A stretch of DNA of 64,000 bases from Brachionus plicatilis (taxonomy: Eukaryota; Rotifera; Eurotatoria; Ploima; Brachionidae): NCBI GenBank assembly GCA_010279815.1, contig QEOQ01000435.1, positions 48,073-112,072 of the forward strand. Reading direction: 5' to 3'. Shown here one piece after another: positions 1,064-62,978 of this stretch. The position numbers and the translations under genes were made by a program. The notes under the pieces are model-generated. The model searched no databases and was not told where the DNA came from. It worked only from the letters and a program-made list of their open reading frames with translations. Numbering within the stretch: the first letter of the stretch is position 1; each line of letters starts with the position of its first letter.

Positions 1064-2979
1064 ATGAACAAAATAACAAATGATTATTACAATAATAAAT
1101 TTGATGAAAAAAAGGTGGTCAATTACTTGTAAAGGAAATTATTAAAAAACAATCTTATAATGGAATTTTATCATTTCAAGATTATGTTAATTTTAATGTA
1201 AACTTAATAGGGAATAAAGATCCAACATTAATTTCTCAAATATCAACATTTATACAATCATATCAAAATAATTTTGATTTGTCATTTCAAATATTTTCAG
1301 CATCAATTTTAATTTATGAAAAGTATCTTTGTAATGAATATGAAACACCGACCTTTATGGTAGCGCGTGTTTGTTTATATCTTTGTAATGGCAATTTTGA
1401 ATTGTTTAAAGTAATGTTTGACCAAATGGTATCGAAAAATCTTTGGCTAAGTTCGTCTGTTATGTTCAATGCTGGACTAAAACTACAGTTAAGTTCTTGT
1501 TTTTTGACAAGTGTTTCAACAAAGGACCTTTTTAAAACCTGCAAATTCCTAAACGAAATCTCAAAAGATGGTGGTGGTGTATCTATTTGTATTAATGAAA
1601 TGAACACTGAATGTTACAATAACAAATTGAATTTTTTACAAGCAACAATGAATCTTGATATGCAAAATAATAAACGTAAAGCGGTGCTTGCTTGTTATAT
1701 AGACATTATAAATTACAAAATTGAAGATTTTTTAAAAGCAAAACGATGGAATGGCTATGATTGTGGAGTTGCACGTGACATGATGTATGGATTGATGATT
1801 TGCGATTTTTTTTTTGATCTTGTCGAACAAAAGCAAGATTTGTATTTGTTTGACTTGAGTAAACACAATGAATTGTGTAAATTGTATGGTAAAGAATTAA
1901 AAGAAAAATATGATGAATTGATTCAAAAAAAATGTTTTGTCAAAAAAATTAATGCATATAAACTGAGTGAATTTATTGTTTCATGTATGAAAGAATGTGG
2001 TAATCCATATATATTGTTAAAAGACAATATCAATAGATCAAATATGCAAAATATGGGTATTATAGTTAGTTCAAATTTGTGTACCGAAATTGTTCAATAT
2101 CATGATGAAAATGAATTTGCGGTTTGTAATCTTGGTGCCATAAATTTGGCAAACATGTATAATGAAAAAACAGGAGAATTTGATTGGTCAAAACTTTGTA
2201 ATACTGTTGACATTGCAATACAAACACTAAATCAAATTACAAATGTGACCGTATCAAATGTTGAAGAGGCAAATGTTGGTAATAGACGACAAAGAGCTAT
2301 AGGATTAGGTGTTTGTGGTTTTGCTGATCTGTTACAACAATTAAACTTGGACCATGATTGTTCATTCAAAACTAGAAAGTTTAATCAAAAATTATTTTTT
2401 GAAATTTATATGCAAGCTGTTTTGTCATCATTGAATTATAAAAAAAAATTTCCCAGTTGTAAAGTTGATCAATGTTGTAAATATTCTCAAGGTATTTTAC
2501 ATTTTGATTTTTTTACAAGTGACAAATTTACTCGAGAGTTTTTGAACGAACATGTAACAAGAATAGACGAGTTGCGTCAAAAACTAATTTATAACAAAGG
2601 TATTGCGAATACTTTGTTGATAGCATTAATGCCAACTGCTACATTATCAAATATATTAAATGTTTCTGAATCATTTTTACCTCGTATAAATTCTTCAATG
2701 ACAAAAACAAAAAAATCAGGAACATATGTTGTTAAAAATCCATATGGTAATGTTAAAGCATTAAAAGAATTAAATTATGATGATATTGTTCAATTGTCAA
2801 TTGATAGACAGCCATTTATTGATCAATCACAATCGTTAAATTTACACTATGGTTCTGAATTTAATGTTGAAAAATTTGTTATGCTTCGAAAATTAAAAAC
2901 AGGATCATATTATTTTAACAATACAAGTGGAAATAATAATGTGCAAATCGATAAAGAATGTTTATCTTGTACCTTGTAA
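1064..2979 (+). CDS. Ribonucleotide reductase large subunit (class I R1), frame break near the 5' end
   Basis: Catalyses NDP to dNDP reduction with an R2 partner not seen here. Visible R1 landmarks are SSCFL (first catalytic Cys), SNLCTEI (active-site N-x-C-x-E), CNLGAINL (second redox Cys), MPTATLSNILNVSESFLP (the MPTA phosphate-binding segment) and a C-terminal CLSC tail. It lacks an N-terminal ATP cone, so allosteric activity control is probably absent. The ATG at 1064 opens a frame that stops after 22 codons. The R1 frame is open from 1108 without an early ATG. The two frames meet at A AAA AAG (1108-1114), either a -1 slippage heptamer or a one-base homopolymer undercall. Full length would be about 638 residues, normal for a cone-less R1. 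Confidence 0.93.
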
Positions 2980-5436: not shown

Positions 5437-6003
5437 TTAAAAATTCCAAATCTTGATTGTTTTATCATGACTACCACTTGCCAAAGTATTTTGATCAATC
5501 AATTGAAGACATGTAATCCAATCAGTATGTCCATTCAATGTACTGACACACTTGTTATTTTGTAAATCCCAAATTTTAATTGAATTGTCATAACTACCAC
5601 TTGCCAAAGTTTTTTTATCAATTAATTGAAGACATGTAATACAATCAGTATGTCCATTCAATGTACTGATACACTTGTTAGCGGTTAGATCCCAAATTTT
5701 AATTGAATTGTCAACACTACCACTTGCAAATGTTTTTTGATCAATTACTTCTAAAGATATAACCAAATCAGTATGACCATTTAAAGTGAATATATGTTTA
5801 AATTCAAATGTTCGTGAATTACTATCATCCAATAGAGAATCTGTGACGTCGTCAAATTTATTTATAATCTTTTCACATGGTAGATCAATTATTGAATAAT
5901 TACAATATTTTTTACTCTTATTTAACACTGATTGTGTTAGTTTTACTAGATCAACACTGTAAATATTATCATTATCATGTGTATCAATTAAAATTCTTTT
6001 CAT
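5437..6003 (-). CDS. WD40-repeat protein, shortened paralog (188 aa)
   Basis: Starts with MKRILIDTHDNDNIYSVDL, almost identical to the start of its neighbour at 6063-7130. It keeps the shared 75-residue N-terminal segment, then only three WD40 blades (LNGHTD...LASGSHDKTIKIWNF type) against about seven blade units in the neighbour. A TATAAATATA box lies at 6035-6044. The blades are so similar to each other and to the neighbour's that an internal deletion by recombination between repeats is likely. Three blades cannot close a propeller alone, so it may oligomerise, fold with other proteins, or be decaying. Substrate or partner unknown. Confidence 0.85.
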   Translation of the reverse strand: MKRILIDTHDNDNIYSVDLVKLTQSVLNKSKKYCNYSIIDLPCEKIINKFDDVTDSLLDDSNSRTFEFKHIFTLNGHTDLVISLEVIDQKTFASGSVDNSIKIWDLTANKCISTLNGHTDCITCLQLIDKKTLASGSYDNSIKIWDLQNNKCVSTLNGHTDWITCLQLIDQNTLASGSHDKTIKIWNF

Positions 6004-6034
6004 TTTTTTATTAAATTTTATTAAAAAATCGCTC

Positions 6035-6044
6035 TATATTTATA
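6035..6044 (-). promoter_or_regulatory. TATA box (TATAAATATA)
   Basis: Lies 32-41 nt upstream of the WD40 gene ATG at 6003. Confidence 0.65.
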
Positions 6045-6062
6045 CACAATAACATTTATAAT

Positions 6063-7130
6063 TTAAAAATTCCAAATCTTGAAGGTACTATCATAATTAC
6101 AACAACTTGTCAAAATATTTTGATCAATTACTTGAAGTGCATTAATCCAGTTACCATGTCCACAATGGGTTTTAATACACTTGTTATTTTGTAAATCCCA
6201 TATCTTGATTTCACCCCACCCATTACCACTTGCCATATATCTTTGATTAATCGTTTGAATACAATTGACAGAATATGAATCTTCAAGTGTACATAGACAC
6301 TTGTTAGTTTTTAAATCCCAAATTTTAATTGTTTTGTCACAACTACCACTTGCCAAAGTATTTTGATCAATCAATTGAAGACATATAATCCAATTGTTAT
6401 GTCCTTTTAACATACTAATACACTTGTTAGTGGTTAGATCCCAAATCTTGACCGTTTTGTCGTCACTACCACTTGCCAGAGTATTCTGATCAATCAATTG
6501 AAGACATTTAATCCAATCGGTATGTCCCTTTAGATTACTAATGCAACTGTTAGTTTTCAAATCCCAAATTTTGATTATCTTATCTCTACCACCATTTGCC
6601 AGAGTATTCAAATCAATCATTTGAAGACATTTAAACCAATAAGAATGAGTATCCAGTGTAGTAGTACACTTGTTAGTTTTCAAATCCCAAATTTTAATTG
6701 TATTATCTAAACTACCACTTGCCAATGTATTTTGATCAATCATTTCAAGAGACATAACACCACGGTTTGTATTGTTATCTAATGTACTAATACACTTGTT
6801 TGTTTTCAAATCCCAAATTTTAATTGTACGATCATCACTACCGCTTGCCAATGTTTTTTGATCAATTAGTTGTAGACATTTGACATAATCAGTATGACCT
6901 TTAAGAGTGACTATATGATTAAATTCAAATGTTCGTGAATTAATATCATCCAATATAGAATCTGTGACGTCGTCAAATTTATTTATAATCTTTTCACTTC
7001 CACATGGTAGATCGACTATTGAATATTTAGAATATTTCTTACTTTTATTTAACACTGATTGTGTTAGTTTTACTAGATCAACACTGTAAATATTATCATT
7101 AACATGCGTATCAATTAAAATTCTTTTCAT
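6063..7130 (-). CDS. WD40-repeat protein (355 aa)
   Basis: Contains the conserved 75-residue N-terminal segment shared with both neighbours, followed by about seven WD40 blades with GH...D...IKIWD signatures (for example LASGSDDRTIKIWDLKT), enough for a full seven-bladed propeller. I start it at the ATG at 7130 (MKRILIDTH), because the paralog starts there and a TATAAATATA box lies at 7167-7176. The 18 codons upstream would overlap that box. WD40 propellers are protein-interaction platforms, often substrate receptors in ubiquitin ligases. No such partner link is shown by the sequence itself. Confidence 0.92.
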   Translation of the reverse strand: MKRILIDTHVNDNIYSVDLVKLTQSVLNKSKKYSKYSIVDLPCGSEKIINKFDDVTDSILDDINSRTFEFNHIVTLKGHTDYVKCLQLIDQKTLASGSDDRTIKIWDLKTNKCISTLDNNTNRGVMSLEMIDQNTLASGSLDNTIKIWDLKTNKCTTTLDTHSYWFKCLQMIDLNTLANGGRDKIIKIWDLKTNSCISNLKGHTDWIKCLQLIDQNTLASGSDDKTVKIWDLTTNKCISMLKGHNNWIICLQLIDQNTLASGSCDKTIKIWDLKTNKCLCTLEDSYSVNCIQTINQRYMASGNGWGEIKIWDLQNNKCIKTHCGHGNWINALQVIDQNILTSCCNYDSTFKIWNF

Positions 7131-7166
7131 TTTTTTATTAAATTTTATTTTTAAAAAAACCCATTC

Positions 7167-7176
7167 TATATTTATA
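7167..7176 (-). promoter_or_regulatory. TATA box (TATAAATATA)
   Basis: Lies 37-46 nt upstream of the ATG at 7130, which decides that start over the longer frame. Confidence 0.68.
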
Positions 7177-7213
7177 ACAAACACACATCATCAAAAAATA
7201 AATAAAATTCTAT

Positions 7214-8281
7214 TTAAAAATTCCAAATCTTGATTTTTTTATCATCAGCAGCACTTGCCAGCGTACAATTATCAATTAATAATAATGTGGTAATTGGACC
7301 AAGTTCATGTGCATTAAATGATTTGATATACTTGCATTCTTGTAGATCCCAAATATCAATCTTTCCAAAACTTGTACCACTTGCCAAATATCTTGAACTA
7401 ATTAATTGAAAACACCAAGTATGAAAATTTGCCGTAAGAATACATGTGCATTTGTTAGTTTTCAAATCCCAAATCTTTAGTTCATCTAAACTACAACTTG
7501 CCAAAGTATTTTGATCGATCCTCTGAATACAACCAATATAGTTTACATGTCCTTCTAAAGTACTAGTACACGTATTAGTATTCAGGTCCCAAATTTTGAT
7601 TTTTCCATTAAAACAACCACATGCTAAAGTATATTGATCAACCAATTCCAAATGTTCTACTCCGTGTTCATGCTCAAAAGTATAAACACACTCTTTGGTT
7701 TGTAAATTCCAAATTTTAATTGATCCATCTTTACTAGCACTTGCAAGAGTATTTTGATCAATTAATTGAAGACACTCGACATCGTTTGTATGCCCTTTTA
7801 ATACATTAGTACACTTATTACTTTTTAGATCCCAAATCTTGATTAATTGGTCATTACCACAACTAACTAATGTATTTTTATCGATTAATTTAATACATTT
7901 AATCCATTTATCATGACCGTTTATAGTATTTGTACATTTGGCACTTTTTAGATCCCAAATTTTAATTGTACAATCATCACTACAACTAACTAATGTATTT
8001 TTATCAATTAATTCTAGCTTTCTTATCCTATCATTATGACCATTAAGAGTACTTTTATGTTTAAGATCAAACGTTTGAAAAGTACTTTCGTTTATAATAT
8101 TATCTGTTACATCATCAAATTTATCGATAATTTTTCCCAATTTACTTGGTAAATCAACTACTGAATAATTGCAAAATTTCTTTGATTTACTCAACACTGA
8201 TGTTGTTATTTTTGTTAAATCTACTCTATAAACATTTGTATCGTTACAATCATCATTAACAATTAACAAACTTCGTTTCAT
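7214..8281 (-). CDS. WD40-repeat protein (355 aa)
   Basis: The third member of the tandem minus-strand WD40 group. It has the same N-terminal segment (VDLTKITTSVLSKSKKFCNYSVVDLP) followed by about seven blades ending in IKIWDL or IKIWNF. I prefer the ATG at 8281 (MKRSLLI) over the one nine bases upstream, because it aligns with the paralogs and sits 37 nt from a TATAAATATA box at 8318-8327. It is more diverged from the other two than they are from each other, so it probably represents an older duplication. Confidence 0.9.
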   Translation of the reverse strand: MKRSLLIVNDDCNDTNVYRVDLTKITTSVLSKSKKFCNYSVVDLPSKLGKIIDKFDDVTDNIINESTFQTFDLKHKSTLNGHNDRIRKLELIDKNTLVSCSDDCTIKIWDLKSAKCTNTINGHDKWIKCIKLIDKNTLVSCGNDQLIKIWDLKSNKCTNVLKGHTNDVECLQLIDQNTLASASKDGSIKIWNLQTKECVYTFEHEHGVEHLELVDQYTLACGCFNGKIKIWDLNTNTCTSTLEGHVNYIGCIQRIDQNTLASCSLDELKIWDLKTNKCTCILTANFHTWCFQLISSRYLASGTSFGKIDIWDLQECKYIKSFNAHELGPITTLLLIDNCTLASAADDKKIKIWNF

Positions 8282-8317
8282 TTTATTCAAAGTAATAAAA
8301 AAAAAAAAAAATCAAAT

Positions 8318-15624: not shown

Positions 15625-16023
15625 ATGAAACCAAATGAAGAACAATCATTTAAGGATTTGAATAATAAATTGAAAACGTTTAAAAAAAAACACACAATTA
15701 CACACCGTCTAATGAACATATTAACAACCCTTGACAATGAATTTATTCAATGGCGTTATAATGGTCAAATAATTTACATTTCAGGATTATATCCGGGATT
15801 ATATTCGAAATTTTGTCCTGCAATGGTAAGAGTTGGTTTTAGTACAATTCTTGTACCTGGTGGTAAAATATTTGTTCATTACAAATTCAAAAAAAATATG
15901 TCCTATCAGAAAATGAATGAAATATTCGAATGGCGAAAATTACATTGGAAAAAGAATTTGTTACGAATTTATTTAAACAACTCAATAATAAAGGAATATA
16001 TAGAAAAAATTAATTTTGTATAG
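15625..16023 (+). CDS. Divergent HSF-like winged-helix protein (intronless)
   Basis: Starts at the ATG at 15625 (MKPNEEQ); the 11 upstream codons have no ATG. Residues 30-105 follow the layout of a heat-shock-factor DNA-binding domain: a first helix (LMNILTTLDNEF), then IQWRYNGQIIYIS, then helices around GLYSKFCPAMVRVGFS, and a beta hairpin with KIFVHYKFKK. Identity to true HSFs is weak. The strongest evidence of kinship is the tail KLHWKKNLLRIYLNN, shared with the two clear HSF genes next door (LHWKKYLLKKYLNN, LHWKKYLLQIYLNN). It has no intron. It probably arose by duplication and rapid divergence. Confidence 0.6.
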   Translation: MKPNEEQSFKDLNNKLKTFKKKHTITHRLMNILTTLDNEFIQWRYNGQIIYISGLYPGLYSKFCPAMVRVGFSTILVPGGKIFVHYKFKKNMSYQKMNEIFEWRKLHWKKNLLRIYLNNSIIKEYIEKINFV

Positions 16024-16130: not shown

Positions 16131-16144
16131 TATATATATTATAG
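16131..16144 (+). promoter_or_regulatory. TATA-like element (TATATATATTATAG)
   Basis: Lies 35-48 nt upstream of the first spliced HSF-type gene. Confidence 0.45.
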
Positions 16145-16178: not shown

Positions 16179-16774
16179 ATGGAAAGTATAAACAAATACG
16201 CTAATATACCAGCATTTTTAAAAAAATTGTGGTTTCTCGTAGAAAATCCATCATATGATGAAATTATTGCTTGGGACTCGGTAAAGTTCACATTTTTTTT
16301 TTTTTCCAATTGATCTATGTTTGTTTAAAGACTGGACTTAGTTTTCATGTTTACAACCGAACACGATTTGTCAAAGAAATTTGTCCCAATTTTTTTAGAC
16401 ACAATAATATAAACAGTTTCACTCATCAGTTAAATTTATGTATATTCTAATAGTATTTAATTTATAGACAATTAATTTTTGTATTTTTAAAAGATGGTTT
16501 TGTAAGGATTAACAATAATCCATTTGATTGGGAATTTCAGAATTTGTATTTTATTAGAGGAAAATCACATTTGTTGGAATTGTGCAAGCGAAGAGAACAA
16601 CAAACGTTTAAAATAAAAACAATTAAACTACCAAAAACTAGTACATTGTTACATAATCAGCAAAAACAACATGAAAATAATAATGATCTTTTGAATGTTA
16701 ATTTAAAAAAAAAAAAATTGCATTGGAAAAAATATCTTTTGAAAAAATATTTAAACAATTTAGAAAAAAAATAA
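16179..16774 (+). CDS. Heat-shock-factor-type transcription factor, spliced (3 exons)
   Basis: Exons 16179-16280, 16331-16439 and 16494-16774; introns of 50 and 54 nt, each GT...AG with A/T-rich bodies and (T/A)AAAG ends. Splicing gives 163 residues covering an almost complete HSF DNA-binding domain: IPAFLKKLWFLVENP (helix 1), then W-D-S/T-G-L-S-F-H-V-Y, FFRHNNINSFTHQLN (recognition helix region), YGF rebuilt across the second junction, and DWEFQNLYFIRGKSHLLEL. HSFs bind nGAAn heat-shock elements as trimers. Here the trimerisation coiled coil and activation domain are missing, leaving only a basic C-terminal tail. It could compete with, or redirect, host HSF (inference). A TATATATATTATAG stretch lies 35-48 nt upstream. 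Confidence 0.93.
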
Positions 16775-16899
16775 CTATTATTTTAATTTTATAACAAATA
16801 AATTTTTTTATTAAATATCATACTCACATAAACTCTTATAAAGTTAGTCTAAAAAATTATAATAATCCTCAGTTTGATTGTTAGAAATATTCAACTAGT

Positions 16900-17508
16900 A
16901 TGCATGATGTACCACCATTCTTAACAAAATTATGGTTTATCGTTGAAAATCCAGTTTATGATGAAATTATTGCTTGGGACTCGGTAAATTTTTAATCATA
17001 GTTCTTCCAATTATCAAGTTTTTTTTAAAGACTGGACTTAGTTTTCATGTTTACAACCGAGCACGATTTGTCAATGAAATTTGCACCAAATATTTTAGAC
17101 ATAATAATATAAACAGTTTTATTCGATTGGCATATTTATGTATTTTTGTAAATTTTTTAAAATATTCAAGCAATTAAAATTATATTTTAAAAGATGGTTT
17201 TGTAAGAATTAACAAGAATCAATTTGATTGGGAATTTCAAAATTTGTATTTTATTAGAGGAAAAGCACATTTGTTGGAATTGTGTAAGCGAAAAGTGAGT
17301 ATGATATCAATTTTTTTGAAACATTAAATAAAAACATCCTTAGAATTCACATCAAAATGTATTTCAAAAAATTAAAATACCATTCAAAAGTACTTTGATG
17401 GATCATAAACAAACCCAGAAACAACCAGAACTTGATAACAAGAATTTGCATTGGAAAAAATATCTATTACAAATTTATTTAAACAATTTACAAAAAAAAT
17501 TATTTTAA
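16900..17508 (+). CDS. Heat-shock-factor-type transcription factor, spliced (4 exons)
   Basis: Exons 16900-16983, 17031-17139, 17194-17294 and 17344-17508; introns of 47, 54 and 49 nt, all GT...AG. The product is 152 residues. Introns 1 and 2 sit at exactly the same codon positions and phases as in the upstream paralog. Intron 3 (GTGAGT...TTAG), after KRK, has no counterpart there. The DNA-binding domain is intact except that the usual R-Q-L-N of the recognition helix reads R-L-A-Y. The tail LHWKKYLLQIYLNN matches both neighbours. Its stop overlaps the convergent AlkB gene by 9 nt. Without splicing the locus looks like broken fragments. Confidence 0.92.
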
Positions 17509-18051
17509 AAACCTCAATGTAATCGATAAGCGAACTTTTGTGTTAATGTTATTTTTTTTAATTTCATGTGTGTAATTATATCTAGATTCATTTTTTAATA
17601 AATATAAAGAATTTTTTTCCATTTTAATTTCAAAACAGTCTTGTGAATTTTGTTTAGCTGCAAATTTCATAACTATATCATCATTTAACGAAATACCAAT
17701 TATGTATTTGTCAAAAAGTTTTACATCATCTACATGAGGTGCAATGCCATCTCTTTGAGGACGATATTCGTTAACAATTACTTGTACTTTTGTCCAATCA
17801 ATATATTCCAAATCTTTAATATTTTTGACAGTATTTTTAACTTGTTCAACAACTTCTATTAACCATGGAACAGACACAACTGGTTTTACTTCATATGATG
17901 ATTCTTTACCATATTTGTAAACATAACGTTTATTATAATGTTGTGTACGTCTACTTAAACAATTGTCCCATTTTTCCTTGTTAATATTTTCTATCAGTTT
18001 TAATGCAGTTGTATTATTTAAAAAATTTGGCAAATAAAAAATTGAGTCCAT
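17500..18051 (-). CDS. AlkB-family Fe(II)/2-oxoglutarate dioxygenase
   Basis: A 183-residue protein of the size of the AlkB core. Features in order: RRTQHYNKRYVY (nucleotide-recognition lid), PVVSVPWL, VNEYRPQRDGIAPHVDD with the HxD iron ligands, IGISLNDDIVMKF, SLYLLKNESRYNYTHEI with the distal iron His, and RLSITLRF with the 2-oxoglutarate-binding arginines. All catalytic residues are present. The family removes alkyl lesions from DNA or RNA; whether this enzyme acts on viral DNA or RNA cannot be told. It resembles the ALKBH8-like layout more than bacterial AlkB. Confidence 0.92.
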   Translation of the reverse strand: MDSIFYLPNFLNNTTALKLIENINKEKWDNCLSRRTQHYNKRYVYKYGKESSYEVKPVVSVPWLIEVVEQVKNTVKNIKDLEYIDWTKVQVIVNEYRPQRDGIAPHVDDVKLFDKYIIGISLNDDIVMKFAAKQNSQDCFEIKMEKNSLYLLKNESRYNYTHEIKKNNINTKVRLSITLRFLK

Positions 18052-41277: not shown

Positions 41278-42003
41278 ATGAATGAATATTACTCATGTAA
41301 TACATCATGTGAACATAAAAAAAAAAATGGAATNNNNNNNNNNNNNNNNNNNNNNNNNNNNNNNNNNNNNNNNNNNNNNNNNNNNNNNNNNNNNNNNNNN
41401 NNNNNATGTAATACATCATGTGAACATAAAAAAAAAAAATGGAATGAATATATAAAGTGTTCAGGATGCATTAGAGACAAATCAAAGCTCTACAACAATA
41501 TGTGTAGAAAAAAAAGTTGTAGTTCTGACTGTCGTAAATATTGGGTAAAATCAAATATTATATTACCATCATGTAATTATCATTGTATTAAATTTGCTTG
41601 GTTTTGTATGGAATGTGCGCTAAAAATTAATACTTCTATAGATCCATTACTTGAATTTGAAAATGACAATGAAACAAAATTATTGTATCATGACGAGTAT
41701 ATATGCACATGTTTTTCAGAAAACAAAATTATAACATTGGATCCAGAAGAACAACATCGTATCAAAAATGTGGCACTTGTAAACTTTTCCAATTATATTT
41801 TAAAACAAATACAACCCGAAGATAAAGCAAAACTATTAACAAACGTAGAAAATAAATATTACGAACAAAAACCAATTAATGGACTATCTTCCAATACTAT
41901 TAAACAGATGAGGAAAAAACCTCATCTATCATATAAAATTTATTGTTTTAAAAATGAAATTTTAAAAATATTTGTATATTTTAAAAAAATATTTATAAAA
42001 TAA
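41278..42003 (+). CDS. Cys-rich zinc-binding-like protein interrupted by an assembly gap
   Basis: After the gap the frame encodes a cysteine cluster (CNTSCEHK, CSGCIRDKS, CRKKSCSSDCRKYW, CNYHCIKFAWFCMEC), which looks like two or more zinc fingers in about 90 residues, followed by about 100 residues with no motif. The 5' side of the gap repeats the same bases as the 3' side, so the start MNEYYSCNTSCEHK probably joins directly to the rest and the protein is shorter than it appears. Function unknown. Confidence 0.65.
   Translation: MNEYYSCNTSCEHKKKNGXXXXXXXXXXXXXXXXXXXXXXXXXCNTSCEHKKKKWNEYIKCSGCIRDKSKLYNNMCRKKSCSSDCRKYWVKSNIILPSCNYHCIKFAWFCMECALKINTSIDPLLEFENDNETKLLYHDEYICTCFSENKIITLDPEEQHRIKNVALVNFSNYILKQIQPEDKAKLLTNVENKYYEQKPINGLSSNTIKQMRKKPHLSYKIYCFKNEILKIFVYFKKIFIK
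41334..41405. other. Run of 72 N flanked by a duplicated sequence
   Basis: Assembly gap. The roughly 39 bases before it (from 41295) and after it (from 41406) are the same sequence, ending in an A run and tggaat. The run is 11 A on the left and 12 A on the right. This is what a false gap at a collapsed overlap, or a true tandem repeat, would look like. Confidence 0.95.
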
Positions 42004-42833: not shown

Positions 42834-44096
42834 ATGAACAAAAGTATTAGAAAAGTTGGACAAAAGTTTAAACTGGCTCTTGAAAGTTTAAAAAAATCCA
42901 ATCTAATGAATGACATAAATAACATTAACAATATAACAGTAAGAAAAATAAAATTTATACATTTATTGGAAAATGTTGAAAACATTGTGAACAACTTAAA
43001 CAATCAATTGTCCAAACATTTGTCCAATTTAAAAAATGACACAACTTCAAAAATATTAGACGACAGATATTCATTAACCGACCAAGATTATATCAATTTT
43101 AATTGTGGTAATAATAATATCGATCATATAACGTGTATATCAAATCATGAAAAATATAATATTATATGTGGTGTAATAAGAAAAGTTGATTATGAAGCCA
43201 TATTTTCGATTGAATTTTGGAATTTAAAAACATTTACATGCTCGGCACCTAAACAACTCTATCATGAATATCCTATCTGGTCAATAAAAATATTTGGTGA
43301 AAAAACACTTGCAAGTGTTAGTAATTATGGAGATATAAAAATTTGGGATTTGGAAACATTTAATTGTATTAATAGTTGGAGTATAAAAGATTGGATACGA
43401 ACCGTGTGCATATCAGATTCGATAGGATCAAAAAATTATGAATTTTTAAATTCCGACACCATTATATTTACTTCAAGACATGTTTGTTTTATTTGGAATT
43501 TTAGGTCTAGTAGACCAGTAGAATTATTTAATTACATTAGTGATATAACATGTTTAGCATTACATGATAATTTAATTGCTTTTTATGGTGGAAAATTTTT
43601 TTTTACCAGCCTATTTTTCGACAGTAACACTAATTATAAACAAAATCTATGTGATACAGGTTGTACAGACAGTCATAAAGAAAGCGTTTCCGTATTAAAA
43701 TTTTTAAATCAAAATACCCTAATTAGTTTTAGTTATGAAGAAGGAACCATAAAAATTTGGGAATTAACATCATGTTTACCATGTTTATCAAATACTAGAA
43801 GATATTTTATGACATGTTTAAAAACCATTTATAACGAAGGAACAAAACAGTTTAATGTTAATTTTGATCTAAATGTGATTATTTTAAACGATATTTATAG
43901 AAAGAGTTTTGAATTTTGGGATTTGAAAACCTATGAATTAATCAAAACAATTGATAACAAAAATTGTTCTGAATTTTTGATTCTTGACGATTTTTTTATT
44001 GTATTAATTGATAGAGAATCACTTAAAAAGTTACAATTAGTTAATTATTTTACATTTGATAAATTAAAAGACAAACTTAATATTATAAAATTTTGA
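42834..44096 (+). CDS. WD40-like protein with N-terminal coiled coil (420 aa)
   Basis: The first 70 residues form a basic helical segment, then KTLASVSNYGDIKIWDLETFNCI and TLISFSYEEGTIKIWEL mark WD40 blades. Several other blades are degenerate. It resembles the neighbour at 44360-45583, which has a similar helical N terminus. A TATAAATA box lies at 42795-42802. Probably a protein-interaction scaffold. Confidence 0.85.
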   Translation: MNKSIRKVGQKFKLALESLKKSNLMNDINNINNITVRKIKFIHLLENVENIVNNLNNQLSKHLSNLKNDTTSKILDDRYSLTDQDYINFNCGNNNIDHITCISNHEKYNIICGVIRKVDYEAIFSIEFWNLKTFTCSAPKQLYHEYPIWSIKIFGEKTLASVSNYGDIKIWDLETFNCINSWSIKDWIRTVCISDSIGSKNYEFLNSDTIIFTSRHVCFIWNFRSSRPVELFNYISDITCLALHDNLIAFYGGKFFFTSLFFDSNTNYKQNLCDTGCTDSHKESVSVLKFLNQNTLISFSYEEGTIKIWELTSCLPCLSNTRRYFMTCLKTIYNEGTKQFNVNFDLNVIILNDIYRKSFEFWDLKTYELIKTIDNKNCSEFLILDDFFIVLIDRESLKKLQLVNYFTFDKLKDKLNIIKF

Positions 44097-44359: not shown

Positions 44360-45583
44360 TTAATTCCATTGTTCAAAAATGTCTTCAAAATTAAATACAT
44401 TTACAAATATAATATTATCGGTTATCTGACATGCTAATGTATAGTCATCAATCATTGTAGCTTTTTTAAGATTTTCCTTTCTTTCAATTTTTTTTAATAA
44501 TTTGAATGTTTTCAAGTCCCATAGGTAAATGTTACTTTTAGACTTACCAGTACTAATCAATATTTTGTTTTTATATAAACTCATATAAAGAGATTCTGAT
44601 TTAGTATATAAAACTTCTAATTTAATTCCACGAGGTGAATTATAATTATCATCTATAAATTGTGTCAAATCGTAAATAATAATCAATGATTCAGAACTTA
44701 TTGCAATCCTAGTCTTATCAATAAATAGCAAACTATCAACTTCACCCTCATGTAGATCACAAAAACCAAGAATGGATAGTTTAAAATCTGTTGAGAATTT
44801 ACAAATGTAAACCTGTGGACTATAAGTTTTGATAAATGCAACTAAATTTTCACATAATTCCAATCTATTAATATTATAGTCTCGATATTTATCTATTTTC
44901 AATGAACTTAAACATTGATTTTTTTCCAAATCCCAAATCGTGATAAAGCTGTAATTATTACCACTTAATATTGTTTTTTTATCAATAATTTGTAAACACG
45001 AGAAATGGAGATCCCCCCTATACCATTGAAAATAAGTATCATTTTGATTTTTATGTTCTTGAAAAACAATAGATTCAATTGTATTGATACACTTTAAAGA
45101 ATTCATATCCCAAATTTTTATCTTGTCATCACTACATGAACTTGCAAATGTTTGTTTATCAATTAATTTTAAATCATTAATATAATTTTTATGTCCTTCC
45201 ATTTTACCAATACGTTGAAATGTTTTCAAATCCCACAATTCAATATCATAATATACTCCAATTAACATTTTAAAATTATCTAGCAATAGTGAGCATTTAA
45301 TTTCTTTAGGTGGTTCTTCAAATAACTTTATTCTATCAAACTCATTAAATTTTTCTCTTGAATCATTATTTGTTTGCAACATTAATTCAGTCAATTTTTT
45401 TTTTTTAAATTCAATTGAACTTATTTTTTGTTCAATATACTTGTATTTCTGTAATTTGACGTAATTTTTTTTTTCCTCAAGATATAACGTTTTTGCTAAA
45501 ATATCATCTTGTGTTTCACAACTTTTAATTGTATTAGTAACCATGGTACAATAGTCATTATTTATTTTTTTAAGTTGATCCAT
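44360..45583 (-). CDS. WD40-like protein with N-terminal coiled coil (407 aa)
   Basis: The first 75 residues are a coiled coil (ILAKTLYLEEKKNYVKLQKYKYIEQK). Blades follow: INDLKLIDKQTFASSCSDDKIKIWDMNSLKCI, KTILSGNNYSFITIWDLEKNQC, ILISTGKSKSNIYLWDLKTFKL. It shares its layout with the 42834-44096 gene and its blade wording (IKIWD, LASGS-type) with the cluster at 5.4-8.3 kb, so all belong to one expanded family. Confidence 0.87.
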   Translation of the reverse strand: MDQLKKINNDYCTMVTNTIKSCETQDDILAKTLYLEEKKNYVKLQKYKYIEQKISSIEFKKKKLTELMLQTNNDSREKFNEFDRIKLFEEPPKEIKCSLLLDNFKMLIGVYYDIELWDLKTFQRIGKMEGHKNYINDLKLIDKQTFASSCSDDKIKIWDMNSLKCINTIESIVFQEHKNQNDTYFQWYRGDLHFSCLQIIDKKTILSGNNYSFITIWDLEKNQCLSSLKIDKYRDYNINRLELCENLVAFIKTYSPQVYICKFSTDFKLSILGFCDLHEGEVDSLLFIDKTRIAISSESLIIIYDLTQFIDDNYNSPRGIKLEVLYTKSESLYMSLYKNKILISTGKSKSNIYLWDLKTFKLLKKIERKENLKKATMIDDYTLACQITDNIIFVNVFNFEDIFEQWN

Positions 45584-61458: not shown

Positions 61459-61563
61459 AAATGATAAACATTATCAATTTTTAATAAACTTTTTAACAAA
61501 ATTAAAACAATTAACATAAACCTATATTAATATATTTAATTTATTAATATTTTTAAAAAAAAC

Positions 61564-62098
61564 AAGACAAATAAATTAACATTATAATTCTGAAATAAAT
61601 TTAAAAAACTTGTACATGAATAGAAAGATTAAAATTATAATTAATTTGAAATGAACAAGTATGACGTTTTTTTTATGTTGAAGCACTTGCACTTCTCTTA
61701 AATGAACAAGTATGACGTTTTTTTTATGTTGAAGCACTTGCACTTCTCCGAAATGAACAAGTATGACGTTTTTTTTATGTTGAAGCACTTGCACTTCTCC
61801 GAAATGAACAAGTAAAAATTGAAACTTTTTTTCAAAACTTGCTCCAAATTTTAAAAATATTTTTTTTTGCCATTTTTTTTTAAATGTGATAAAAAGAATT
61901 GTGCTGCTCACAGCACCAAACTGTCTTATGATGTCTCCATACTTTTACACATAACGTTGCTTCAACTATTAAATTACGTCATACTTGTTCATTTAACAAG
62001 TGTTAAGATGCATTGATATAAAAAATACGTCATACTTGTTCATTTGACAAGTGTTAAGATGCATTGATATAAAAAATACGTCATACTTGTTCATTTAC
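61564..62098. repeat. hr-like repeat block, copy 1
   Basis: Left array: 19-bp motif AAATGAACAAGTATGACGT at 61649, 61700 and 61751 (partial at 61802), period 51 bp. Right array: the exact reverse complement, ACGTCATACTTGTTCATTT, at 61976, 62027 and 62078, also period 51 bp. Between them lies a GC-rich perfect hairpin (61901-61916). The array is therefore a large inverted repeat. The block recurs 771 bp later. The motif contains TGACG, a CRE half-site. Candidate origin or enhancer. Confidence 0.95.
61901..61916. repeat. Perfect hairpin GTGCTG-ctca-CAGCAC in the centre of the hr block
   Basis: A 6-bp perfect stem with a 4-base loop, much more GC-rich than its surroundings, lying between the two arms of the inverted array. 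The same hairpin occurs at 62672-62687 in copy 2. Confidence 0.85.
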
Positions 62099-62334
62099 AA
62101 AAAAACTATGATGTGAATTTAAATTGTTAAACAAGACAAAAAATATACCATTTATATACCAAAAAAATGTATTACATGAAAACAAAATTATATATTCTTC
62201 ATGATATTTTATTCAATATAATTTCATACATTTTTATGATTCATTATGTAAATATACATGCAATAAACTTGTTAACAAAATATAAAAAAAATCAACATTA
62301 AATTATACATCTCATTTTTTTTAATTTGTTAACC

Positions 62335-62869
62335 AAGACAAATAAATTAACATTATAATTCTGAAATAAATTTAAAAAAATTGTACATGAATAGAAAGAT
62401 TAAAATTATAATTAATTTGAAATGAACAAGTATGACGTTTTTTTTATGCTGAAGCACTTGCACTTCTCTTAAATGAACAAGTATGACGTTTTTTTTATGT
62501 TGAAGCACTTGCACTTCTCCGAAATGAACAAGTATGACGTTTTTTTTATGTTTAAGCACTTGCACTTCTCCGAAATGAACAAGTAAAAATTGAAACTTTT
62601 TTTCAAAACTTGCTCCAAATTTTAAAAATATTTTTTTTTGCCATTTTTTTTTAAATGTGATAAAAAGAATTGTGCTGCTCACAGCACCAAACTGTCTTAT
62701 GATGTCTCCATACTTTTACACATAACGTTGCTTCAACTATTAAATTACGTCATACTTGTTCATTTAACAAGTGTTAATATGCATTGACATAAAAAATACG
62801 TCATACTTGTTCATTTGACAAGTGTTAATATGCATTGACATAAAAAATACGTCATACTTGTTCATTTAC
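62335..62869. repeat. hr-like repeat block, copy 2
   Basis: A direct repeat of copy 1 at an offset of exactly 771 bp. Left-array motif starts are at 62420, 62471, 62522 and a partial one at 62573. Right-array starts are at 62747, 62798 and 62849. The few base differences from copy 1 (for example atgcattgacat against atgcattgatat) show it is not an assembly duplicate. The 236-bp spacer between the copies holds nothing recognisable. Confidence 0.95.
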
Positions 62870-62978
62870 AAATAATATGATGTGTGTAATTAATATGTAA
62901 TTAGGGTAGTGATAACTGTAAAATCTCATTCCCATTCCTAAAAATGAATGATCTGTCGTCCAATACTTGCAAATTTTC

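Follow-up and report, generated by a model that had tools for sequence, protein, structure and literature searches.

Two described systems come closest to the locus reported here. According to the excerpts available from two studies of heat-shock factors (HSFs), the arginine of the recognition helix is invariant and donates specific bonds to the guanine of GAA, the asparagine of this helix bridges via solvent to the preceding base, and the wing makes protein-protein contacts between the domains in the trimer (PMC8379338, PMC5205663). The second system is that of the endogenous nimaviruses of crustaceans such as shrimp, in which, as far as the available part of one report describes, eukaryotic-like genes (BIR, innexin and HSP70-like) are present, some of them with introns (PMC10871703).

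The locus studied here lies in a 64-kb stretch of DNA, from here on the window, which corresponds to C95:48073-112072 on a 402-kb contig of a rotifer assembly; the assembly searched comprises 103 Mb in 173 contigs. Two genes, A and B, are arranged in tandem on the plus strand and are interrupted by five predicted introns, all of them GT...AG and 47-54 nt long. The features are as follows.

16179-16774, plus strand: gene A, HSF-type domain and tail; exons 16179-16280, 16331-16439 and 16494-16774; 163 aa if spliced
16281-16330, plus strand: gene A intron 1; 50 nt, phase 0, host position
16440-16493, plus strand: gene A intron 2; 54 nt, phase 1, splits the Tyr of YGF, host position
16900-17508, plus strand: gene B, HSF-type domain and tail; exons 16900-16983, 17031-17139, 17194-17294 and 17344-17508; 152 aa if spliced
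16984-17030, plus strand: gene B intron 1; 47 nt, phase 0, host position
17140-17193, plus strand: gene B intron 2; 54 nt, phase 1, splits the Tyr of YGF, host position
17295-17343, plus strand: gene B intron 3; 49 nt, phase 0, follows KRK, host position; without counterpart in gene A
17500-18051, minus strand: 2OG-Fe(II) oxygenase ORF, AlkB-type family PF13532; 73.5 bits, cut-off 31.2

Read without splicing, the frame meets a stop after 44 aa in A and after 31 aa in B. A sequence-only reading of this DNA had proposed that the joining of GT...AG segments restores the HSF domain in both genes, that introns 1 and 2 are equal in position and phase between them, and that intron 2 splits the Tyr codon of Y-G-F. 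We recovered the five junctions at the positions claimed and with agreeing coordinates, and the split Tyr codon was borne out in both A and B. Intron 3 is found in gene B alone of the two, and in the host HSF as well. When the host HSF was used as a tblastn query (A, E=6e-24; B, E=3e-21), the alignment broke at the proposed exon edges in both genes, with host residues 39|40 falling at 16280|16331 in A and at 16983|17031 in B. A TATA-like site precedes A (16131-16139) and an AATAAA follows it at 16797, although both mean little in DNA so AT-rich; the 3' end of B overlaps the convergent oxygenase ORF by nine bases. From the DNA sequence, we infer nuclear transcription and splicing of both genes.

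The identity of the domain, for which a search with the Pfam HSF profile had been suggested, was confirmed: PF00447 matched A with 48.6 bits and B with 43.9 bits against a cut-off of 22 and, among the best candidates genome-wide, its matches were confined to the places of the A/B locus and the host gene on contig C12. Compared with the PDB on its own, exon 2 found human HSF1 (A, E=7.3e-9; B, E=2.1e-7), and the domain part of exon 3 of gene B gave a weak match (best E=0.12). The claim that both proteins lack a trimerization domain also held, since the host HSF segment from the HR-A/B-like region onward found nothing better than E=2.2 in the window. Neither gene has the canonical S-F-x-R-Q-L-N recognition helix, HR-A/B or the usual wing length. 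The architecture is thus that of one HSF-type winged-helix domain and a short basic tail, with no trimerization region; the proteins themselves are predicted products.

The assembly also contains a host HSF, on contig C12, with 494 aa as read from the sequence. This HSF matches Brachionus plicatilis HSF1 from end to end with 96% identity, and a B. calyciflorus protein along 56% of its length with 60% identity, which places the assembly in the B. plicatilis group. The introns of the host gene lie after AWDS (phase 0), within the Tyr codon of YGF (phase 1) and after KRK (phase 0). Gene A has the first two and gene B all three, so that the five GT-AG introns found within this large viral stretch are all at host positions, and the intron pattern of A and B is more than chance. 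The intron sequences of virus and host show no recognizable likeness (z 1.1-2.7), the synonymous sites between A/B and the host HSF are saturated and dN is 0.25-0.30; the unlike introns and the saturation indicate that the capture event was not recent.

To place the viral copies, we used the best 120 of 2732 matches to the host protein, a set which is biased towards animals like the host because of this choice; "rotifer-like" denotes four named Brachionus entries (P0001-P0004) and the sequences clustering with them. Partitioned maximum likelihood by exon on 25 taxa (A, B, the host, six of the 11 rotifer-like and 16 of the 109 other HSFs) joined A and B with seven rotifer-like HSFs including the host (UFBoot 86), outside these HSFs' own clade (support 83), but neighbor joining on 27 taxa gave the grouping of virus and rotifers a support of only 0.445. 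At 19 diagnostic columns the rotifer residue occupies 19 of the 38 viral cells and the residue commonest elsewhere 8. The summed scores of A and B rank the four named Brachionus entries best among the 120 HSFs, by a small margin, and for gene B alone the non-rotifer-like P0064 (277) scores between B. calyciflorus (283) and B. plicatilis (275). The shared intron positions and phases, together with the nearness of the viral copies to rotifer-like HSFs, strongly support the earlier proposal of capture from a host at the DNA level. Most likely the virus acquired the exons in the form of genomic DNA from the rotifer lineage, and the comparisons support a donor that would be a rotifer or a close relative, not narrowed to Brachionus itself. 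Taken alone, capture from the host is in our judgment very probable.

A misjoining of a host fragment into a viral scaffold would also place HSF exons in this setting, and the assembly does have N gaps. The sole N run of the window, however, is at 41334-41405, about 24 kb from the locus; A and B are no copies of the host HSF, given the dN above, and their tail recurs in the adjacent ORF C; and a second copy of the locus was not found in the assembly, where two short, weak DNA matches (C14, C60) fell in its AT-rich part. We regard such an artefact as barely credible.

Past the domain, we found no resemblance of A or B to the host HSF. Both genes end instead in a motif which recurs in a neighboring ORF.

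16715-16771, plus strand: C-terminal tail motif LHWKK-x-LL-xx-YLNN of gene A
17443-17499, plus strand: the same C-terminal tail motif in gene B
15625-16023, plus strand: ORF C, 132 aa, an intronless viral ORF that carries this motif at its C-terminus as well; not HSF by profile

None of 1000 shuffles was as good in the comparison with ORF C, for the A tail or for the B tail, and a tail-derived pattern occurred in these three places only among 15 pieces of C95. As the tail is common to A, B and the adjacent ORF C, the two genes look like chimeras, and the simplest reading is that a host-derived front was joined to a viral end. We also considered whether ORF C could be a third HSF that has degenerated. 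By eye, the order of helices and strands predicted for it is similar to that of the HSF domain, but hhalign against an animal HSF profile aligned 10 columns with P=0.099, none of the domain pieces of A and B did better than the shuffles (485-935 of 1000 as good) and the structure model was unusable (mean pLDDT 40.5), and this candidate was rejected.

The surroundings had been read as a virus-like genome. The dense virus-like stretch stands, but the contig to which the window belongs comes from a rotifer assembly, and the stretch probably represents an integrated copy. ORFs of at least 100 aa cover a fraction of 0.83 of the window. Among the 40 ORFs of at least 150 aa that were scanned (E limit 0.001 in part of the scans and 0.01 in others), 8 score above the cut-off of a Pfam family, and for 27 no family is listed; the recognized ORFs are a ribonucleotide reductase (RNR) large subunit, three WD40 proteins, a papain-type protease, a RING protein, an AIG1-like GTPase and the 2OG oxygenase. 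The viral RNR subunit is 34% identical to the host enzyme on C97. Its match (window 1279-2979) begins about 140-160 residues into cellular enzymes, so that the N-terminal part seems missing, and tblastn with the host enzyme found no upstream piece. The three WD40 ORFs are adjacent (5437-8290) and have a 123-nt repeat period; weaker WD40-like ORFs lie at 42834-44096 and 44360-45583. To the left of the window lie TBP-like, DUF5906 (which we read as probably D5-like), PIF1-like helicase and ISXO2-type transposase ORFs. The last of these, of ISXO2/IS1595 type (L006:8504-9451, C95 about 46.5-47.5 kb), is a candidate integration enzyme. A family B DNA polymerase piece with internal stops is found at C95:188-194 kb (L020), in a low-density part of the contig.

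The stretch also has a dispersed repeat of its own.

61461-62876, strand not assigned: arrays of 51-nt partly palindromic repeats, the virus's dispersed repeat

Further arrays lie at C95 286-732, 24435-24830, 121840-121961 and 128214-128507 and at C55:408186-408529. The repeats have a conserved ACGTCATACTTGTTCATTT core, and the arrays, which lie in opposing orientations, are candidate replication or enhancer regions; they are reminiscent of the homologous regions found in nuclear insect viruses. With at most one mismatch allowed, a 20-base pattern derived from the repeat occurs 32 times in the assembly, 28 times on C95 (0.3-128.5 kb) and 4 times on C55, while its reversed control does not occur at all.

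The major capsid protein profile of the Nucleocytoviricota (PF04451) had no match in the assembly, and none in the control genomes either. In IMG/VR, at the sensitivity of the search and with intron-split genes easily missed, no relatives of A exon 3, ORF C, the D5-like protein or RNR were found. In further searches for relatives elsewhere, A exon 3 with some intron sequence, a query subject to this same limit, gave 3 candidates, none with E<=1, and of the 7989 candidates scored for the D5-like protein none reached E<=0.001 at that sensitivity.

The pieces of C95:121838-146000 are without N, and in them viral ORFs and repeats extend to about 130 kb, followed by a retroelement ORF (gag, protease, RT and RNase H) at 136.8-139.1 kb and, beyond it, by decayed viral matches in L032 and, further on, L009. 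A second, decayed viral stretch, akin to C95 124-131 kb, was observed at C55:406-418 kb (L040, L041); its DNA identity is about 77-87% (80.6% across 1977 nt), stops and frame changes break its reading frames, and retroelement ORFs interrupt it. As some 130 kb of virus-like DNA run without N into host retroelement DNA, with decayed relatives on C95 and C55, the carrier stretch is probably an integrated part of the rotifer genome. Directly to the right of the window there is a run of 9765 N, and the left border of the viral stretch is out of view because C95 begins inside viral-looking DNA.

We then compared the substitutions among the copies. Between A or B and the host HSF, differences by codon position are 20/19/51 for A and 26/19/56 for B, a third-position excess with p about 1e-5. 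Between A and B, the exon parts compared are identical at 258 of 293 positions and introns 1 and 2 at 72 of 99 (Fisher p=0.0007). The A-B dN/dS of 0.46 is not significant (p=0.066, from rounded counts), and the A-B differences show no codon-position bias (10/9/14, p=0.53). This lack of significance by itself, and the probable integration of the segment, would fit an event at the level of the host, in which duplication in the host placed HSF exons in a viral segment that was already integrated, where they are now drifting. The synonymous saturation against the host makes the event old, yet the surrounding ORFs are intact while related integrated copies are broken; in addition, the splice frames are open in both copies, the exons are better kept than the introns, and the tail is common to the viral ORF C. 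We consider a drifting host relic decidedly unlikely, and return to capture by the virus.

What the captured domain might do was approached through the residues that read DNA. The recognition helix has R-Q-L-N in all 120 HSFs, H-Q-L-N in A and R-L-A-Y in B; that is, Arg is changed to His in A, and Gln-Leu-Asn to Leu-Ala-Tyr in B, which keeps the Arg. The wing, which connects strands 3 and 4 as a loop, is 5 residues long in A and B against 12-15 in the 120 HSFs. These changes argue against simple heat-shock-element decoys, that is, A and B occupying host elements as monomers and dampening the output of the host HSF; the sequence-only reading had considered that the proteins could interfere with the host HSF, and plain competition for its elements is disfavored on these grounds. 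A single HSF-type domain for which no trimerization region was found, and the Arg retained in B, speak for decoys; but A has lost this Arg, B the three residues after it, and the wing is short in both, where in the HSFs described in the available part of one study the GAA site is contacted by the Arg and the Asn, and contacts between domains are made through the wing (PMC8379338). We hold decoys to be unlikely.

Viral regulation through canonical heat-shock elements was likewise tried and rejected. Compared with 50 shuffles, and with the window's 72 N read as A, element pairs in the window are rather rare and not enriched (GAANNTTC 18 against a shuffle mean of 24.9, TTCNNGAA 15 against 23.8), and three-box sites number 0 against a mean of 1.3. 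No candidate binding motif for A or B was identified in this analysis.

The loss of the key Arg could equally mean that DNA binding was lost. A and B would then be protein-level antagonists or scaffolds, acting through the surface of the domain or through the ORF C-like tail, and both the altered recognition helix of the two genes and a tail common to ORF C, which is not HSF by profile, agree with such a role. The remainder of the domain is nonetheless kept, with the third-position excess against the host, and no partner is known; we find this role quite unlikely. On the residues compared here, we favor repurposed regulators and disfavor plain decoys.

In the history that we propose, a large nuclear DNA virus of rotifers would have taken up host genomic DNA with the first HSF exons and their introns, as the intron identity suggests, and the captured stretch would have been fused with a viral coding end resembling the one in ORF C, as the common tail suggests. 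The fused gene may then have duplicated in tandem, with gene A losing intron 3 or never having had it. A and B would need nuclear transcription and splicing to yield the 163- and 152-aa proteins, which may be viral DNA-binding regulators with a changed sequence preference, acting on viral or host promoters; the carrier stretch would now probably be integrated in the rotifer genome. We propose this whole account, from intron-bearing capture, viral-tail fusion and duplication to repurposed DNA-binding regulators and integration, with moderate confidence, lower than for capture alone because it includes the regulator function. More tentatively, and as a possibility we would not yet call probable, a new integrating lineage of large nuclear rotifer DNA viruses may have made a host stress-response domain and a viral tail into a spliced pair of regulators with a new DNA specificity.

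At the sequence level, the locus is evidence for the ability of a large virus to take up host genes in the form of genomic DNA including introns, and a donor-type gene is at hand for comparison in the same assembly. It is also a natural experiment in how the HSF DNA-binding domain changes once free of trimerization and of its heat-shock duty, and a pointer to a large DNA virus lineage in rotifers, animals which serve as live feed in aquaculture. Among the matches listed, we found no viral HSF in the literature and no large DNA virus of rotifers in the open-access literature.

Compared with the metazoan HSF1, represented by the rotifer's own gene on C12, A and B share the DNA-binding domain and the three intron positions and phases; they differ from it in the missing trimerization region, the 5-residue wing, the changed recognition helix and the viral tail. 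The profiles for PIF-1 (PF05092) and p74 (PF04583), which mark Naldaviricetes-type viruses (nimaviruses, nudiviruses and baculoviruses), had 0 matches each in the rotifer assembly outside its unsearchable N stretches, and the control genomes likewise had none. The endogenous nimaviruses differ from the present case in their crustacean hosts, and the available part of the report names no HSF among their genes; they resemble it as large viral DNA stretches in invertebrate genomes with eukaryotic-like genes, some of which bear introns (PMC10871703). With this precedent the kind of capture is already known, and the A/B locus, which is real and best explained by the capture of a host gene with its introns, with a function that is so far predicted, is new in the gene and in the host.
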